Of a DNA stretch of 57,997 nucleotides, positions 40,053 to 48,257 are shown one piece after another. Position numbers and translations under genes: made by a program. The DNA lies in assembly GCA_024640085.1 (NCBI GenBank), contig JAHEFR010000018.1, forward strand, positions 1 to 57,997, given 5' to 3'. Origin of the DNA: Gammaproteobacteria bacterium. Lineage in GTDB: Bacteria > Pseudomonadota > Gammaproteobacteria > Steroidobacterales > XN24. The notes beneath the pieces are model-generated. The model was not told the DNA's origin. It saw nothing but the letters and a program-made list of their open reading frames with translations, and did not search any database. Numbering within the stretch: the stretch's first letter is position 1; every line of letters starts with the position of its first letter.

Positions 40053-40090
40053 TTGACTTCCTATGCGCATGTAATATAACTTATGCGCAT
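40053..40090 (+). promoter_or_regulatory. argR promoter with paired operator-like repeats
   Basis: -35 TTGACT (40053-40058), 16-base spacer, -10 TATAAC (40075-40080). TATGCGCAT occurs twice, at 40062-40070 and 40082-40090; each holds the palindrome ATGCGCAT and they lie 20 bases (two helical turns) apart, flanking the -10 box. This is the spacing of paired ArgR boxes, so the product of the first gene probably represses here. The sequence differs from the E. coli ARG box (TGAAT...ATTCA). Confidence 0.7.
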
Positions 40091-40113: not shown

Positions 40114-40581
40114 ATGCCGACAGACCCGAGTCAACAGGCTGCCAGGCGCGCAGAGATTTTGCGCATACTCAAGGCGCAACCCATCACCCGCCAGGAAGAC
40201 CTTGTGGGTGAGTTGTCCGAACGAGGACTGGACGCCACCCAGTCAAGCATCAGCCGCGATCTCAAGGAACTAGGCGTGGCCAAGGTCGGAGACCGGTACC
40301 TGGCGCCCCAGAACGTGCGCGCACCAGGCGGCGCATCGTTCGAGTTGCTATCCGGCTTCGTCCGTAGCGTCTCGCCTGCCGGGATGAACCTCACCGTGAT
40401 CCGGACATCCGCAGGAGCTGCCCAGAGCGTCGCCGTTGCTCTCGATGCATCCGGCTGGCGGGAGATCGTAGGCACGATATCCGGCGACGACACCATATTC
40501 GTCGCAACCGCCACCGCCCATCAACAGCAGGCACTGCTATCGCGCCTGAATCAGGTCTTTCCCAAGGCAAACAGATCATGA
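40114..40581 (+). CDS. argR: Arginine repressor ArgR
   Basis: A 155-residue regulator with an N-terminal winged helix (ITRQEDLVGELSERGLDATQ, SSISRDLKELGVAKV) and the C-terminal arginine-binding hexamer domain (VRTSAGAAQSVAVALD-like region and GTISGDDTIFVAT). It senses L-arginine and represses arginine synthesis. It is first in the arginine operon and overlaps argG in ATGA. The paired TATGCGCAT repeats upstream are its likely target. Confidence 0.95.
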   Translation: MPTDPSQQAARRAEILRILKAQPITRQEDLVGELSERGLDATQSSISRDLKELGVAKVGDRYLAPQNVRAPGGASFELLSGFVRSVSPAGMNLTVIRTSAGAAQSVAVALDASGWREIVGTISGDDTIFVATATAHQQQALLSRLNQVFPKANRS

Positions 40582-41792
40582 GCTCGAACGAACCTATCCT
40601 CCTGGCCTTCTCCGGAGGCCTGGATACCTCCTTCTGTATTCCGTGGCTTTCCGAAACCTATGGGCGCCCGGTCATCACGGTCACCGTGGACACCGGAGGG
40701 CTGGACGATAACGCCCGTGACGCCCTGGAGCAGAAGGCCCTGGCCCTCGGGGCAGCCAGGCACGTGACCGTGGATGCCCGCCGAAGGTTCTTCGACGAGG
40801 TCCTGCGCTATCTCATTTTCGGCAACATCCGCCGCGGCGGCCTCTACCCTTTGTGCGTCGGGGCGGAACGCGTATTACAAGCCCAGACCATGGCCCGGAT
40901 CTGCGGCGACCTTGGCTCTCGCACCGTGGCTCATGGCTGTACCGCGGCGGGCAACGACCAGGTCCGGTTCGAGGTCGCGCTGCACACCCTGCAGCCAGAC
41001 CTGGAGGTGCTTGCCCCGGTGAGGGACAACGCGTGGCGTCGGGAACAGCAGGTCGCCTTCCTTGAGGACCGCGGTCTGCCTGCGCCGGGCGGACGTGGCG
41101 CCTACTCGATCAACCGGGGGCTATGGGGCGTCACCATCGGCGGCCGCGAGACCCTGGATTCCAGGTCCAGTATCCCCGAGGAGGCCTGGGTGCTGACCCA
41201 TGGCGCCTTCGACGCGCCACGTCAGTCCGAGCGACATGTGCTTGCGTTCGACGCCGGCGTCCCTGTCGCGCTGGACGGCGAATGCATCGAACCGGTCGAA
41301 CTCATTGAGGAGGTCGAATCCCGGGCCGCTCAGTTCGGCATCGGCCGCGGCATCCATCTGGGGGACACCGTCCTGGGCACGAAGGGCCGGGTGGCTTTCG
41401 AAGCGCCCGCCGCGGAGGTCATCCTCACTGCGCACCGGGAGCTTGAGAAGCTGACGCTCAGCGGGGCCCAGACCCGGGTGAAGGATTCGGTATCTACTCT
41501 CTACGGGGACATGCTCCACGAAGGACAGCACCTGGATCCGGTTTGCCGCGACATCGAGGCGCTCCTCTCCCGGTCCCAGGCCCGAGTGACCGGCGAAGTC
41601 ACCATCCTGTTCCGCTGCGGCCACGTCTTTGTCGAGGGCGTTACGTCGCCCCACTCCCTGCTGGCGGCAACACGGGGAAGCTATGGGGAAGCCGCCGGGG
41701 AGTGGACGGCGGCCGACGCCCTCGGCTTCTCCCGGATGAGATCGCTCCCCGGCATGCTCTACACCAGGGCCGGAAGCCAGGAGGTCGGGTGA
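40578..41792 (+). CDS. argG: Argininosuccinate synthase
   Basis: A 404-residue ligase that joins citrulline and aspartate with ATP. N-terminal P-loop AFSGGLDTSF; PLCVGAERVLQAQTMARI, HGCTAAGNDQVRFE and GVTIGGRETLDSRSS follow. Length and style are nearer to the class found in Bacteroidota and Xanthomonadales arginine operons. ATG overlaps the argR stop. In this pathway it acts after deacylation of acyl-citrulline, for which no enzyme is encoded here. Confidence 0.95.
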   Translation: MSSNEPILLAFSGGLDTSFCIPWLSETYGRPVITVTVDTGGLDDNARDALEQKALALGAARHVTVDARRRFFDEVLRYLIFGNIRRGGLYPLCVGAERVLQAQTMARICGDLGSRTVAHGCTAAGNDQVRFEVALHTLQPDLEVLAPVRDNAWRREQQVAFLEDRGLPAPGGRGAYSINRGLWGVTIGGRETLDSRSSIPEEAWVLTHGAFDAPRQSERHVLAFDAGVPVALDGECIEPVELIEEVESRAAQFGIGRGIHLGDTVLGTKGRVAFEAPAAEVILTAHRELEKLTLSGAQTRVKDSVSTLYGDMLHEGQHLDPVCRDIEALLSRSQARVTGEVTILFRCGHVFVEGVTSPHSLLAATRGSYGEAAGEWTAADALGFSRMRSLPGMLYTRAGSQEVG

Positions 41793-41793
41793 G

Positions 41794-42849
41794 TTGAAAC
41801 CGCTGATCGTGGACAAGGTCGCCTCCGTCGCCATGAGCTGCAAGCTCGGGCGCGAGGTGAGAATCTCCGAGGACATACCGTGCGAGGAAGGCGTAGTCGT
41901 TGCTGTGGAGGTCCTGAACAACAAGTCCAGCTACAACCAGCTCGAACTCACCTCGGGCCGCATGGCGCAGGTGAAGGCCGGGGATATTGTCGTAGGCGCC
42001 CTCGGCCATCGGCACGCCCTGTTCGGCTACTCGGGGCATCTTCCGACCGAGCTGGGTCCCGGCGACTCCGTGAACATCCTCAACCTGGGCGGGGTCATCG
42101 GGATCTGCGACTCAGTCAATCCCGACCGGGGACAACCATTCGAGTGTCGGGCACTGGGCACGGTCCTCGACTTCCCCTACCTGGGGGAGCGCATCGGCCG
42201 GCCCGCGCGCGTCGGCGTTCACCGACTGGAACCGTTCGTGCGGCTTGACACGGCTGGCGTGCCGGTGGTCGCCCTGGCCGGCACCTGCATGGACTCGGGC
42301 AAGACCGCGGCGGCCTGCGCCATCATCAGCCGGCTCACCCATGCCGGTCTGCGGGTCGGGGCTTTCAAGGCGACCGGCGTCTCGCTGCGCCGTGACGTGC
42401 TGGCCATGGAGGACGCCGGCGCCGTGGAGACAGGAATCTTCACCGATTTCGGAGTGGTAACGACTACGCCGGCGAACGGGCCCGACCTGACCCGGGCGCT
42501 GTTGAACCGCCTCTGCGCGGGGCGGCCGGACATTGTCGTGTTCGAGCTCGGGGACGGCTTGCTGGGCGCCTATGGCGTCCAGGCCATACTGTCGGCACAG
42601 GACATCCGTCAGTCATTGAACGCGGTGGTCCTGTGCGCCAACGACCCCGTGGCTGCATGGGGGGGCGTCAGGCTCCTCCGCGACCAGTTCGAGATCGAAC
42701 CCGCCGCCGTGACCGGGCGAGCCACCGATAATGCCGTCGGCACCGAGATGATCGTGGATCAGCTGAACGTACCGGCCTTCAACGCCCTGACCCAGGGCGC
42801 CCTGTTGGGCAACGAAGTCATCGCCCGGGTATTCCCGGACTGGTGCTGA
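41794..42849 (+). CDS. P-loop protein of the arginine operon (DUF1611-like), function unknown
   Basis: A 351-residue protein. Residues 1-150 are beta-rich with a striking ALGHRHALFGYSGHLP segment and NILNLGGVIGICDS; residues 155-351 form a P-loop domain with Walker A AGTCMDSGKTAAACAI, then GAFKATGVSLRRD, VVFELGDGLLGAYG and NAVVLCANDP. The second half resembles the dethiobiotin synthetase/MobB/DUF1611 type of P-loop fold. Some DUF1611 proteins (DgcN) are reported to acetylate D-glutamate. It starts at TTG 41794, two bases after argG, with AGGAGG upstream, so it is a fixed part of the operon. See findings for a proposed role as acylglutamate synthase. Confidence 0.85.
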   Translation: MKPLIVDKVASVAMSCKLGREVRISEDIPCEEGVVVAVEVLNNKSSYNQLELTSGRMAQVKAGDIVVGALGHRHALFGYSGHLPTELGPGDSVNILNLGGVIGICDSVNPDRGQPFECRALGTVLDFPYLGERIGRPARVGVHRLEPFVRLDTAGVPVVALAGTCMDSGKTAAACAIISRLTHAGLRVGAFKATGVSLRRDVLAMEDAGAVETGIFTDFGVVTTTPANGPDLTRALLNRLCAGRPDIVVFELGDGLLGAYGVQAILSAQDIRQSLNAVVLCANDPVAAWGGVRLLRDQFEIEPAAVTGRATDNAVGTEMIVDQLNVPAFNALTQGALLGNEVIARVFPDWC

Positions 42850-42862
42850 GGGAGGCGAAAGG

Positions 42863-43918
42863 ATGAGCGCATCCAGAGCGATTGGCGTCATCGGTGGTAC
42901 CGGCTATGTCTCCGGGGAGCTGCTGCGCCTGATAGCCGGACACCCCCACCTGGAGCTGGGATGCATCGCCTCGGCGTCGAGCCCCGGGATGGATCTGACC
43001 GAGGCGTTTCCGAACCTGGCGGGATGCTACTCCGGGGTCCGCCTCGCTTCGATGTCGGAACTGGATGCCCGATGGCGAGACGGGGCGCTGGCGGGGATCT
43101 TCTGCGCGGCGCCCCACGGTACGGCCGCCGGCCTCGTCGACGGGTTGCTTTCCGGTGAGGATGCCCGCCGCGGCAGGATCGTGGACATTTCGGCGGATTT
43201 CCGCTTCCGGGACCCGGTGGTGTTCGAGGGGATTTACGGACAGCCCCACGGCGCTCCGAACATGACAGGGCAGTTCACCTGCGCGGTGCCCGAGCACCTC
43301 GCCGAAATGGCCACTCCCCACGCGGCTCAGCCCGGCTGCTTCGCCACGGCCATGCTGCTCGGGGTCGTGCCCATGATCCGCTCCGGTCTGATCGAAAATG
43401 ATTTCTTCATTTCGGGCGTCACCGGCAGCACCGGATCGGGTCGGAGCCCGTCGCCGACGACTCATCATCCCGAACGTCATTCCAACCTGTTCGCTTACAA
43501 ACCGCTGTCCCATCGTCACGCCCCGGAGGTAGAGACCATCGCCGAAGCCGTCGCCGGACAACGGCCCCGGATCCGCTTCGTACCTCATTCCGGACCCTTC
43601 GCCCGGGGCATCCACGTCACCATCCAGGGGCGACTCCGGCCGGATGCCGAGCCCACCGCTCTCCGGACGGCGCTGCAGCACGCCTATCGCGATCACCGGT
43701 TTGTCGAAGTGGCTGACGCCCCGCCACGCATCAAGGACGTGGTCGGCTCGAACCGGGCGCGTCTCCACCTTGCCTTCGATGAACGCGGCTACGCCCTGCT
43801 GGTCGTCATCGACAACCTCATCAAGGGCGCGGCCGGCGGCGCCATGCAATGGATGAATCGTCTGCTCGGCCTCCCCGAGCACGCCGGCCTCACTGCTCCG
43901 GGACCGGCATGGATATGA
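42863..43918 (+). CDS. argC: N-acetyl-gamma-glutamyl-phosphate reductase
   Basis: A 351-residue reductase for the third step of arginine synthesis, converting N-acylglutamyl phosphate to the semialdehyde with NADPH. Nucleotide loop GVIGGTGYVSGELLRL; catalytic Cys159 in QPGCFATAML; GVTGSTGSGR and HPERHSNLFAY follow. ATG 42863 follows GGGAGGCGAAAGG. It overlaps argD by four bases. Confidence 0.95.
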   Translation: MSASRAIGVIGGTGYVSGELLRLIAGHPHLELGCIASASSPGMDLTEAFPNLAGCYSGVRLASMSELDARWRDGALAGIFCAAPHGTAAGLVDGLLSGEDARRGRIVDISADFRFRDPVVFEGIYGQPHGAPNMTGQFTCAVPEHLAEMATPHAAQPGCFATAMLLGVVPMIRSGLIENDFFISGVTGSTGSGRSPSPTTHHPERHSNLFAYKPLSHRHAPEVETIAEAVAGQRPRIRFVPHSGPFARGIHVTIQGRLRPDAEPTALRTALQHAYRDHRFVEVADAPPRIKDVVGSNRARLHLAFDERGYALLVVIDNLIKGAAGGAMQWMNRLLGLPEHAGLTAPGPAWI

Positions 43919-45078
43919 GCCACGCATCGATGGCGACCAGGGAGGCGGAATGGTCGGTGCCGGTCTACGATCAGTTGCCGCTGGAACCGGTGCGGGGAGA
44001 TGGCGTCCATCTGGAAACCCGGGACGGGAGGCGACTGCTGGACATGTACGGCGGCCATGCCGTCGCCAGCCTCGGCTTCGGCCACCCCGGGCTGCTTGCC
44101 GCCCTGCGCACCCAGGCCGAGACGCTGATTTTCCAGAGCAACGCCGTGCCAATGGAGGTGCGGGCCGAGGCCTGCCGGGCCCTGGCGGCCTTTGCGCCGG
44201 AAGGCCTGGACCGGGTGTTCCTGGTCAACAGCGGAGCGGAAGCCAACGAAAACGCCCTGCGACTGGCATTCCGGATGACGGGAAGGTCCCGGGTGGTGGC
44301 GGTGGAGGGCGGTTTCCACGGTCGCACCGGCGCGGCCGCGGCGGTGACATGGGGGGCGCGCGGCCGCTGGTATGGTTTCCCGCGGATGCCCTTCGACGTG
44401 ACTTTCGTGGCGTGCGACGATGTTGAGGCCCTCGATGCCGCCGTATCGTCTGACGTGGCCGCGGTCATCGTGGAACCCATCCAGGGCGTGGCCGGCGCGG
44501 TCGACCTGAGCCCGGATTTTCTCGCCGCCGCGAGGTCCGCCTGTGACGCGGCTGGCGCGGTGCTGATCTTCGACGAAGTCCAGTGCGGCATGGGGCGCAG
44601 CGGTCATCCCTTCGTCGCCCAGGCGATCGGCGTCACACCGGATCTGTTGACGACGGCCAAGGGCCTGGCCGGCGGATTCCCGGCGGGAGCACTCATCATG
44701 AGTGACCCGGTCGCGGAGTCCCTGGCCGTCGGCGATCTGGGCACCACTTTTGGCGGCGGCCCCCTGGCCTGCGCCGCCATCTCGGCCGTGATCCGCGCCA
44801 TCGAGGCGGAATCGCTGCTGGAGAACGTAAGGGAGATCTCCGCGAGGATCCGTACGACCTGCGTCGTGGGTCCGGTGGAATGTATCCAGGGCCGCGGATT
44901 CCTGCTGGGACTCCGGACGACTCCCTCGTCCCGTGTAGTGAGGGATGCCCTGCTCGAACGGGACATCCTTGCGGGTACCAGCGCGGATCCCCATGTGCTG
45001 CGCCTGCTGCCACCGTTGACCCTGGCGGCCGATCACGTGGACAGGCTCTCGCTGGCGCTCTCGGAGATCGGCTCGTGA
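43915..45078 (+). CDS. argD: Acetylornithine aminotransferase (class III)
   Basis: A 387-residue PLP aminotransferase for N-acylornithine. Features: MYGGHAVASLGFGHP, NSGAEANENALRLAF, GFHGRTGAA, DEVQCGMGRSG and the PLP lysine Lys249 in TTAKGLAGGFP. ATG 43915 overlaps the argC stop in ATGA; ATGs at 43909 and 43930 are alternatives. Its own stop overlaps the argF' start in GTGA. Confidence 0.94.
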   Translation: MSHASMATREAEWSVPVYDQLPLEPVRGDGVHLETRDGRRLLDMYGGHAVASLGFGHPGLLAALRTQAETLIFQSNAVPMEVRAEACRALAAFAPEGLDRVFLVNSGAEANENALRLAFRMTGRSRVVAVEGGFHGRTGAAAAVTWGARGRWYGFPRMPFDVTFVACDDVEALDAAVSSDVAAVIVEPIQGVAGAVDLSPDFLAAARSACDAAGAVLIFDEVQCGMGRSGHPFVAQAIGVTPDLLTTAKGLAGGFPAGALIMSDPVAESLAVGDLGTTFGGGPLACAAISAVIRAIEAESLLENVREISARIRTTCVVGPVECIQGRGFLLGLRTTPSSRVVRDALLERDILAGTSADPHVLRLLPPLTLAADHVDRLSLALSEIGS

Positions 45079-46085: not shown

Positions 46086-47027
46086 GTGAGGAAACCGGGA
46101 GAAAGGGACATCGTCGTGACCGCCCTCAAGGGCGCCGTCCCGTACATACGCATGTTCAAACACAAAGTCTTCGTCATCAAGGCGGGGGGCGCGGTATTCG
46201 CCGACCCGGACCTGACCCGGCACATCGTCGAGCAGATTGGCCTGCTTTACGAGGTCGGCATCAAATGCGTCCTGGTCCACGGTGGCGGCCCCCAGTCTAC
46301 GAGCCTGGCAGAGGCGCTGGGCGTCCCGTCCCGCTTCGTGGCCGGAAGAAGAGTCACCGACGCCCGAAGTCTCGAGGTGTCAGCCATGGTGCTGAATGGC
46401 CTTGTCAACACTCGCATCCTTGCGGCCTGCCGTGACCTGGACCTGCCGGCGGTGGGCATGAGCGGCGTGGACGCCAATCTGATCCGCGCTCGCCGACGCC
46501 CGCCCGTGGACGTACCCGGGGAGGACGAGGGCCAGGTCGATTATGGCTTCGTGGGAGATATCGAGGGCGTCACGAGCGAGACGCTCCGCCGGCAACTCGA
46601 GGCGGGCTTCCTCCCGGTGATCAGCCCGTTGTCGGCGGACGAGGCCGGCACCTTGCTCAATATCAACGCGGATACCGTGGCGGCGGCCTTGGCGGCCGCA
46701 CTTGGGGCGGAGAAGCTGATTATCGCCACCGGGGCGCCCGGTATCCTTGAAAATCCCGCTGATCCGGCGTCGCTGGTCTCGTATATCGACCTCGTCGGGC
46801 TGGCCCGCATGAAGGCCGAGGGCCGCCTGGCGGCAGGCATGGGGCCAAAGGCGGACGCAATCCGTACGGCCATCGAGGGCGGCGTGCGCCGGGTCCACGT
46901 AATCTCCCACGATCTGCCCGACAGCCTCCTCCTTGAGATCTTTACCAACGAAGGCACGGGCACCCTGGTCGTGGCGGATACGCAGACCCTCACCGCCGCC
47001 GAACAGGCGGCAGACCGGATCGGGTGA
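46086..47027 (+). CDS. argB: Acetylglutamate kinase
   Basis: A 313-residue amino acid kinase that phosphorylates N-acylglutamate. It begins VTALKGAVPYIRMFKHKVFV and shows KAGGAVF, VHGGGPQ, AGRRVTDARSLEV and NINADTVAAALAAAL. The last part has GVRRVHVISHDLPDSLLLEIFTNEG, typical of arginine-sensitive kinases, which suggests feedback inhibition. GTG 46086 follows GGAG three bases after argF'; no gap for a separate promoter. Confidence 0.95.
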   Translation: MRKPGERDIVVTALKGAVPYIRMFKHKVFVIKAGGAVFADPDLTRHIVEQIGLLYEVGIKCVLVHGGGPQSTSLAEALGVPSRFVAGRRVTDARSLEVSAMVLNGLVNTRILAACRDLDLPAVGMSGVDANLIRARRRPPVDVPGEDEGQVDYGFVGDIEGVTSETLRRQLEAGFLPVISPLSADEAGTLLNINADTVAAALAAALGAEKLIIATGAPGILENPADPASLVSYIDLVGLARMKAEGRLAAGMGPKADAIRTAIEGGVRRVHVISHDLPDSLLLEIFTNEGTGTLVVADTQTLTAAEQAADRIG

Positions 47028-47066: not shown

Positions 47067-48257
47067 ATGAGCAGACTATGGGACAAGGGCGATCCGCTCG
47101 ATCAGCGCATCCTGTCATTCACCGCCGGCGAGGATCACATCCTGGACAATCGGCTGGTGCCCTACGATGTAAGAGCATCGATCGCCCATGCGGAAATGCT
47201 CGCGCGGCGGGGACTGATCCCCACCGACATCCGCGACCGGATCGTCGAGGGCCTCCAGTCGCTGGCCGCCGAACACGCGGCGGGCGAATGGGCAGTCTCC
47301 CTGGAAGAGGAAGATGTCCACACGGCGCTGGAGCGGCGGCTCACTGAACGTGCGCCCGAGGCCGGATCCAGCCTGCACCTCGGCCGGTCGCGCAACGATC
47401 AGGTGCTCGCCGCCATACGTCTTTACATCAAGGATGCCTGTCAGTCGCTACATGACGGGGCTGTCCGAGTAGCAGACGAACTCGACGCCCTCGGCGAACG
47501 GGAATCCGCGACGCCTTTGCCGGGGTATACCCACCTCCAGCCCGCCATGCCGAGTTCCGTGCCGCTGTGGGCTGGTGGCTTCGCCGCGGAAATCCGGGAC
47601 GATGCCCTTGGCCTGCTGGATGCCCGGCGGCGGGCCGACAAGAACCCCCTTGGATCTGCCGCGGGCTACGGCGTACCGCTGCTTCCGCTGGACCGTGAGC
47701 AGACGCGTGAGGCGCTCGGCTTCGCCGTCACCCATGACCCGGTAACGGCGGTGCAGTTGTCGCGCGGCAAGGCGGAGGCCCAGATAGTCTTTGAGACGCA
47801 TCTGCTCATCTCAGATCTCGGCCGGCTGGCCTCCGACCTGATCCTGTTTTGCACCCAGGAATTCAGCTTTGTGGCCCTGCCCGCCAGCATGACCACCGGA
47901 TCCTCGATCATGCCCCAGAAGCGCAATCCCGATGTGTTCGAGCTGATCCGCGGCCGGTGCGCGACTTCCCTGGCATGTCTCACAGAGATCCTCGCGGTGA
48001 CCAGCAAGCTGACGTCCGGCTATCACCGAGACCTGCAGCTCATCAAGTCGCCCCTGTTCCGGGCACTGGACCTGGCGTCCGATGTCCTGGCCGTGCTTGC
48101 CGCGGCCGTGCCGCAAGTCCGCTTCGTGCCGGAAAACATACGCATGGGGCAGTCGCTCTACGCGACAGAGGAGGCATACCGCATGGTGCTGGACGAGGGC
48201 GTACCGTTCAGGGAAGCCTACCGGCGAGTGGGGCGCCGATTCCGCCCGGATCGTTGA
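47067..48257 (+). CDS. argH: Argininosuccinate lyase
   Basis: A 396-residue fumarase-superfamily lyase that releases arginine and fumarate. Motifs: HLGRSRNDQV, PGYTHLQPAMP and the signature GSSIMPQKRNPD. At 396 residues it is short (E. coli 457); it stops soon after PFREAYRRVGRRF, so the usual C-terminal segment of 50-60 residues is missing. The active-site regions are upstream of this and intact. ATG 47067 follows GGTGGAG. Last gene of the arginine operon. Confidence 0.94.
   Translation: MSRLWDKGDPLDQRILSFTAGEDHILDNRLVPYDVRASIAHAEMLARRGLIPTDIRDRIVEGLQSLAAEHAAGEWAVSLEEEDVHTALERRLTERAPEAGSSLHLGRSRNDQVLAAIRLYIKDACQSLHDGAVRVADELDALGERESATPLPGYTHLQPAMPSSVPLWAGGFAAEIRDDALGLLDARRRADKNPLGSAAGYGVPLLPLDREQTREALGFAVTHDPVTAVQLSRGKAEAQIVFETHLLISDLGRLASDLILFCTQEFSFVALPASMTTGSSIMPQKRNPDVFELIRGRCATSLACLTEILAVTSKLTSGYHRDLQLIKSPLFRALDLASDVLAVLAAAVPQVRFVPENIRMGQSLYATEEAYRMVLDEGVPFREAYRRVGRRFRPDR

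Follow-up and report, generated by a model that had tools for sequence, protein, structure and literature searches.

The window, meaning the whole stretch of DNA analyzed (57,997 nucleotides), belongs to a gammaproteobacterial genome of 3.19 Mb that is 95.8% complete. It contains an arginine operon with the gene order argR-argG-[P-loop gene]-argC-argD-argF'-argB-argH, in which all the genes lie on the forward strand and are separated by short gaps or overlap (Table 1). The neighbors of the P-loop gene are identified by Pfam and NCBIfam matches, in agreement with the first-pass annotation, which had described the arginine operon around this gene; argR is an addition to that description. The presumed GTG start of argF' overlaps the argD stop codon. 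No ArgA, ArgJ, GNAT or M20 gene is found in the interval from argR to argH.

Table 1. Genes and regulatory features of the arginine operon in the window (positions are those of the window)
Feature	Position	Strand	Basis
Probable ArgR operators, two ATGCGCAT palindromes (40063-40070 and 40083-40090)	40063..40090	+	sequence; directly upstream of argR
argR, arginine repressor	40114..40581	+	Pfam Arg_repressor_C E 2e-19, Arg_repressor E 2.8e-14
argG, argininosuccinate synthase	40578..41792	+	TIGR00032 292.7 bits, cut-off 268.2
P-loop gene, proposed N-acyl-L-glutamate (probably N-succinylglutamate) synthase	41794..42849	+	family search, models, context
argC, N-acyl-gamma-glutamyl-phosphate reductase	42863..43918	+	TIGR01850 280.6 bits, cut-off 233.6
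argD, acylornithine aminotransferase	~43909..45078 (start codon inferred)	+	Aminotran_3 E 3.5e-88; TIGR00707 315.5 bits, under cut-off 410
argF', carbamoyltransferase with succinylornithine-type residues	45075..46082	+	PRK04523 334.5 bits, cut-off 288
argB, acylglutamate kinase without GNAT domain	46086..47027	+	TIGR00761 213.6 bits, cut-off 151.3
argH, argininosuccinate lyase	47067..48257	+	TIGR00838 296.5 bits, cut-off 279.5

The ORF of the P-loop gene is real and encodes a protein of 351 amino acids. It opens with a TTG codon located 1 base past the argG stop and preceded, 9 bases upstream, by AGGAGG; these signals, together with the alignment of the N-termini of the homologs, rule out a doubtful start. 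At the head of the operon, the two ATGCGCAT palindromes are 20 bases apart and overlap the promoter-like elements TTGACT (40053-40058) and TATAAC (40075-40080), an arrangement that is probably an ArgR operator with its promoter. The putative operator presumably differs from the enterobacterial ARG box. A pair of ATG-NN-CAT motifs with the same 20-base spacing recurs upstream of argR in 14 of the 41 rows compared (including L045, L227, L053 and L213), and given this recurrence and the position of the palindromes in front of argR, the P-loop gene is probably part of an ArgR-controlled operon.

Homologs of the P-loop protein were detected at 24 loci of GTDB genomes, with 63–80% identity in the best segment. 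Sixteen of these loci are labeled Gammaproteobacteria or Chromatiales, and the remaining ones carry the labels Proteobacteria/Pseudomonadota, Rhodospirillaceae/Rhodospirillales or Sphingomonadales, with one Acidobacteria metagenome-assembled genome (MAG). The neighborhood survey that had been suggested along with the first-pass annotation finds argC directly after the P-loop gene at all 21 loci where the contig continues, and argG before it at 22 of the 24; the two exceptions are L051, with argR directly upstream, and L062, with no argG match within 10 kb upstream. The full order argR-argG-[P-loop gene]-argC-argD-argF'-argB-argH is retained in 18 of 18 further operons from the same order of bacteria, which were chosen for carrying the P-loop gene (one of them, L216, repeats L060). 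The identity to the window is 63–79% for the P-loop protein, 63–81% for argG and 47–66% for argC; by this measure, the P-loop gene appears to be conserved about as well as argG and better than argC. The recurrence at 24 loci, at such identity and in the same setting, shows that the association of the P-loop gene with this operon is not due to chance. The most compact version comes from a Sphingomonadales MAG (L051; L033 on contig C23 of G268), where the P-loop gene stays together only with argR, argC and argB, which encode the repressor and the enzymes for the second and third steps; ArgJ was not found in this MAG. In an even sample of the phylum, the arginine-type P-loop gene is present in only 2 of the 398 genomes, the genome of the window and G268, so that its occurrence is concentrated in certain lineages.

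A genome-wide search for argA, argJ and GNAT-type synthases was among the checks suggested in the first-pass annotation for its hypothesis, namely that the P-loop protein makes N-acetyl- or N-succinyl-L-glutamate for ArgB. In the genome of the window, this search returned no ArgJ match, no ArgA above the cut-off and no NAT domain of the bifunctional synthase-kinase NAGS/K. The sole strong match to the ArgA model involves its kinase part and is produced by the ArgB of the operon, with the match ending at position 294 of 429. These searches reject an annotation gap that would hide ArgJ, an over-cut-off ArgA or NAGS/K in this genome. The result extends to the 25 genomes with the P-loop gene (the genome of the window and those of the 24 loci, mostly MAGs), with ArgJ in 0 of the 25 and ArgA over the cut-off in 0 of the 25; the search for the NAT domain covered the order-level survey described below and the genome of the window. 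A classical ArgE (L070; PRK05111, 489.5 bits, cut-off 460) is encoded elsewhere in the genome of the window, on contig C20, and DapE (L069) is present as well, so the earlier statement that an ArgE-type deacylase is missing applies to the operon and fails for the genome.

A survey of 147 genomes from the order to which the genome of the window belongs found a match to the P-loop protein (E≤1e-10) in 115. Six of these genomes (G424, G428, G451, G474, G484 and G545) possess only a paralog with about 30% identity and were dropped, so that the arginine type is counted in 109 genomes. A NAGS/K-type NAT domain occurs in 21 genomes, none of the 147 has both, and 17 have neither; these counts were made by hand, with some of the genomes without a match inferred as the remainder of the 147. 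ArgJ and over-cut-off ArgA are each found in 0 of the 147. Fisher's test over all 147 genomes gives 2e-15 when relatedness is ignored, but the genomes are related and partly incomplete, and the counts, accordingly, are not independent events. In two of the 17 genomes with neither gene (G520 and G551; L228 and L229), the contig breaks off within the operon before reaching the position of the P-loop gene, and the other 15 show no match to ArgA/ArgB-type models at E≤1e-15; these 15 are possibly arginine auxotrophs or incomplete assemblies. They comprise five members of the family f97 (G430, G444, G457, G468 and G478), eight of f100 (G434, G448, G460, G472, G482, G497, G513 and G518), G463 and G545. 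The family f94 is an informative case. The arginine-type P-loop gene is present in 21 of the 23 genomes of this family; G557 has, instead, NAGS/K together with an ArgF' that carries Glu92, and G545 has the paralog only, with no ArgB-type match.

NAGS/K of the Xanthomonas type, in which a NAT domain (PF04768) is fused to the kinase, is assigned to the same proposed step in the same order of bacteria (21 of the 147 genomes), with argF', argG, argC and argH likewise nearby. The domain itself is of the GNAT type and unrelated to the P-loop protein, and the gene arrangement differs: argF'-argG-(argE-like)-argB/A-argC-argH in 12 loci, some of which are cut by contig ends. An argE-like ORF is found in 11 of these 12 loci, compared with 0 of the 24 P-loop loci.

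Taken together, the gene order, the lack of any known synthase above the cut-off, the exclusion of NAGS/K and the residues of ArgF' considered below, all of which are read from sequence, suggest that the P-loop protein is the N-acylglutamate synthase of step 1, probably forming the N-succinyl derivative, in place of ArgA, ArgJ and NAGS/K; we give this reading a probability of about 0.7. Comparative genomics thus sides with the earlier hypothesis, through the absence of ArgJ and of over-cut-off ArgA from the 147 genomes, the exclusion of NAGS/K and the reduced module, while the catalytic activity itself is predicted from this context. The protein would take the place of ArgA, ArgJ and NAGS/K across much of one proteobacterial order. 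A literature search, with most subscription papers outside its scope, found no description of the P-loop protein or of any P-loop N-acylglutamate synthase.

The sequence of the P-loop protein by itself is of limited help in choosing a chemistry. Residues 1–150 are beta-rich and poorly modeled, and residues from about 150 to 351 form a P-loop domain with the motif GTCMDSGKT. The protein reaches no family cut-off in Pfam or NCBIfam and shows no GNAT or ArgJ match in these databases at E≤1. The closest families are MobB (PF03205; E 4e-4, 20.7 bits, gathering score 26.6) and DUF1611 (PF07755; E 0.16, 11.8 bits, gathering score 25). Both matches are sub-threshold, so the resemblance to DUF1611 is weak at the sequence level. 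The comparison with the DUF1611, MobB and BioD families that had been proposed earlier thus leaves the protein under every cut-off, and an ordinary MobB or BioD gene is rejected on the same grounds. A sequence-profile search of the PDB found nothing. Alignment of 19 arginine-type proteins with 16 paralogs shows, among others, G163, G169, K170, T171, K192, G195, D201, F216, D218, G220 and E251 to be invariant, a set that would be consistent with a site that binds a nucleotide or the phosphates of CoA.

AlphaFold2 yields a confident P-loop domain (residues from about 150 to 351), with pLDDT under 50 for residues 1–140; when the first 156 residues are modeled alone, the mean pLDDT is 53.6, and Foldseek finds nothing for this model at E≤0.001. 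For the full model, Foldseek places FtsY, dethiobiotin synthetase (DTBS) and HypB first, with DUF1611 absent among the best 50 matches listed. In the VIA fold comparison, two DUF1611 structures head the list, 2g0t (Z 16.8, 177 residues, 2.8 A) and 2obn (Z 16.6), followed by CTP synthase (4zdj, Z 16.3), HypB (15.4), DgcN (7xrj, Z 15.3, 183 residues, 3.0 A) and DTBS (15.2), where differences in Z under 1 count as ties. DTBS, CTP synthase and HypB, which we take to be SIMIBI-type P-loop enzymes, thus have the fold of the P-loop domain in common with our protein at Z 15–16 but lack a sequence match to it above any cut-off. With CTP synthase tied and DTBS and HypB close, the fold does not point to an acyltransferase in particular: it permits a DgcN-like acyltransferase and, equally, an ATP-using ligase.

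Among these relatives, DgcN has the DUF1611 fold, the title of its PDB entry designates it as an N-acetyltransferase, and its acceptor is reportedly D-glutamate itself. There are also differences: the identity is 10% over the aligned part, the P-loop protein has no over-cut-off match to DUF1611 and possesses an N-terminal domain for which no match was found, and its location in an arginine operon leads one to expect L-glutamate rather than D-glutamate as the substrate. According to an excerpt of PMC10845958, the DgcN-DgcA pathway converts D-glutamate into L-glutamate. A literature search with the name of the DgcN structure, and with DUF1611 combined with acetyltransferase and glutamate, found no paper. 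Profile comparison against 20 DUF1611 proteins gives a probability of 4% for the arginine-type proteins, 18% when the paralogs are included and 74% for the paralogs alone. The earlier proposal that the C-terminal half resembles DUF1611 is compatible with the fold comparison, in which CTP synthase is tied, and membership in the Pfam family is not supported by the sequence, given the 11.8 bits against 25 and the low profile-profile values. This failure lowers the case for an identity with DgcN but not that for the role of an N-acylglutamate synthase.

The same fold evidence frames the alternative that survives best, an ATP-dependent amide ligase that would join succinate or acetate to the amine of glutamate, still at step 1 but without CoA. 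The fold relatives that are tied or close, CTP synthase and DTBS, use ATP for making C–N bonds, DTBS is the best of the three weak PDB sequence matches to the P-loop protein (E 0.3), and G-K-T in the Walker A motif is unchanged across all 35 aligned proteins. Against this, DgcN shares the fold under a title of N-acetyltransferase, and the compared DUF1611 proteins retain the P-loop (GTDCSVGK or similar), so that the presence of this motif need not imply ATP chemistry. To our knowledge, the known N-acylglutamate synthases draw the acyl group from acyl-CoA or, in the case of ArgJ, from an acyl-ornithine. A ligase appears unlikely on balance, if still worth keeping in view; the title of DgcN and the P-loop retained by the DUF1611 proteins favor an acyl-CoA donor, which would more probably be succinyl-CoA than the free acid with ATP.

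The nature of the acyl group can be approached through ArgF'. As given in an excerpt of PMC4581275, acetylornithine carbamoyltransferase (AOTCase) has Glu92, Asn185 and Lys302, and succinylornithine carbamoyltransferase (SOTCase) has A/S/P/V/Q, P and V/I/E at these positions; according to the portion of PMC7311316 on GapMind, the preference is switched at the first of these positions, where S, P, A and V favor succinyl. The ArgF' of the window has A, P and V at AOTCase positions 92, 185 and 302, the residues listed for SOTCase. Its closest PDB match is 3l02, an AOTCase entry with Ala where 3m4n has the aligned Glu. Ala92 and Pro185 occur in all 38 ArgF' rows of the P-loop operons (37 distinct sequences, with L060 the same as L216), and Ala and Pro are likewise found in the ArgF' of the two operons cut by a contig end in G520 and G551; rows are missing for five of the 24 loci (L047, L051, L064, L066 and L068) and for L156. 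Position 302 in the P-loop rows is V in 27, A in 10 and E in 1. In the NAGS/K operons, for comparison, Glu92 and Asn185 are present in 11 of 11 rows, with K in 10 and Q in 1 at position 302. Ala302 of the 10 P-loop rows and Gln302 of the single NAGS/K row fall outside the published list. By these residues, the P-loop gene goes with the succinylornithine-type enzyme and NAGS/K with the acetylornithine-type one, which makes succinyl more likely than acetyl and narrows the earlier 'acetyl or succinyl' to succinyl as the likelier of the two.

It is rather improbable, then, that the acyl group is acetyl, with the P-loop protein an N-acetylglutamate synthase and ArgF' accepting acetylornithine despite its residues. 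That possibility is favored by the ArgE of the genome, which is assigned above the cut-off to PRK05111, acetylornithine deacetylase, by the NCBIfam name of ArgF', N-acetylornithine carbamoyltransferase, also above the cut-off, and by Ala302 in 10 of the 38 rows, outside the V/I/E of SOTCase; it has to contend with Ala92/Pro185 in the 37 distinct P-loop ArgF' sequences set against Glu92/Asn185 in all 11 from NAGS/K operons, and with both of the excerpted sources, PMC4581275, which lists A/S/P/V/Q and P for SOTCase, and PMC7311316, which links S/P/A/V at the first position to succinyl.

If the P-loop protein is an N-succinylglutamate synthase, the pathway can be drawn through to arginine. L-Glutamate would be acylated to N-succinylglutamate, the substrate of ArgB; ArgB, ArgC and ArgD would carry it to N-succinylornithine, and ArgF' would turn this into N-succinylcitrulline. 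An unlinked deacylase of the M20 family, ArgE or DapE, would then release citrulline for ArgG and ArgH. The Bacteroidota protein BT3761, which we take to be a GNAT, is attributed to the same step with the same acyl group as proposed here, whereas the P-loop protein has no GNAT match. In the excerpted text of PMC7311316, BT3761 is a probable N-succinylglutamate synthase that shares over 50% identity with Cabys_1732, an N-acetylglutamate synthase, and the succinylated pathway of Bacteroidota includes a succinylornithine-type carbamoyltransferase.

The least probable of the alternatives leaves the acylation to an unlinked GNAT, such as S-NAGS or a short NAGS of the ArgO type, and makes the P-loop protein a regulator, assembly factor or chaperone, as the fold similarity to HypB (Z 15.4) might suggest. 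The genome of the window encodes 27 GNATs, and 15 of the 25 genomes with the P-loop gene contain a weak match (E≤0.01) to the GNAT portion of the ArgA model; against this, there is no such match at that threshold in the other 10, none of the 25 GNATs of the genome of the window that were scanned against NCBIfam (E≤1e-6; all but L013 and L018, which lie inside long frames) exceeds the cut-off for a glutamate N-acetyltransferase, and a helper would be expected neither to keep NAGS/K out of all 109 genomes with the arginine type nor to remain with argC and argB alone.

The GNATs of this genome that do pass NCBIfam cut-offs are RimI, ArsN1b and ArsN2. ArsN1b and ArsN2 are acetyltransferases of arsenic and arsinothricin resistance; the former (L021, contig C11) scores 213.9 bits with a cut-off of 210, and the latter (L026, contig C6) 131.3 bits with a cut-off of 125. 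The ArsN2 protein on contig C6 also scores best against the GNAT half of the ArgA model, which counts further against an unlinked GNAT. As a candidate short NAGS, it is rejected, since it passes the ArsN2 cut-off and reaches only 28.7 bits against the ArgA family PRK05279, with a cut-off of 344.

A wider proposition builds on the preferred reading of the P-loop protein as the step-1 synthase and falls just on the probable side of even: that P-loop N-succinyl-L-glutamate synthases form a separate, fold-unrelated class that founds a succinylated pathway outside Bacteroidota, and that this class displaced NAGS/K, or was displaced by it, together with a switch of the carbamoyltransferase, within one proteobacterial order. 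Were this so, a gap in arginine synthesis would be filled for a large group of uncultured proteobacteria, and a P-loop class would be added to a textbook step that is otherwise credited to GNAT-type enzymes and ArgJ. The succinylated pathway would extend beyond Bacteroidota, and carbamoyltransferases now named as acetylornithine-type would be corrected. Other P-loop proteins, for example the paralogs linked to M20 genes, might then be suspected of acylating amino acids as well.

These paralogs form a clade with about 30% identity to the arginine type and are found elsewhere in many of the genomes; 15 loci with 16 members were examined. In 9 of the 15 loci (L034, L172, L174 and L177-L182), the paralog directly follows an M20 amidohydrolase gene on the same strand, and the same 9 loci carry a third gene of about 200 amino acids, which makes the cluster a conserved one; at a tenth locus, L036, an M20 gene is found a few kilobases off, on the opposite strand. 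One of the M20 proteins is best matched by PRK07338 and the glutamate carboxypeptidase PRK06133, both below the cut-off. The pairing of a P-loop protein with an amide hydrolase would fit a chemistry of N-acyl amino acids. In 5 of the 15 loci (L035, L036, L175, L176 and L183), the gene next to the paralog is, by eye, ABC-transporter-like, and such neighbors say nothing in favor of acylation.

Full-length ArgB proteins of the P-loop operons score about 130–171 bits against the kinase half of the ArgA model, compared with 69–96 bits for the NAGS/K proteins, and the better match of ArgB may reflect an ancestry shared with ArgA.
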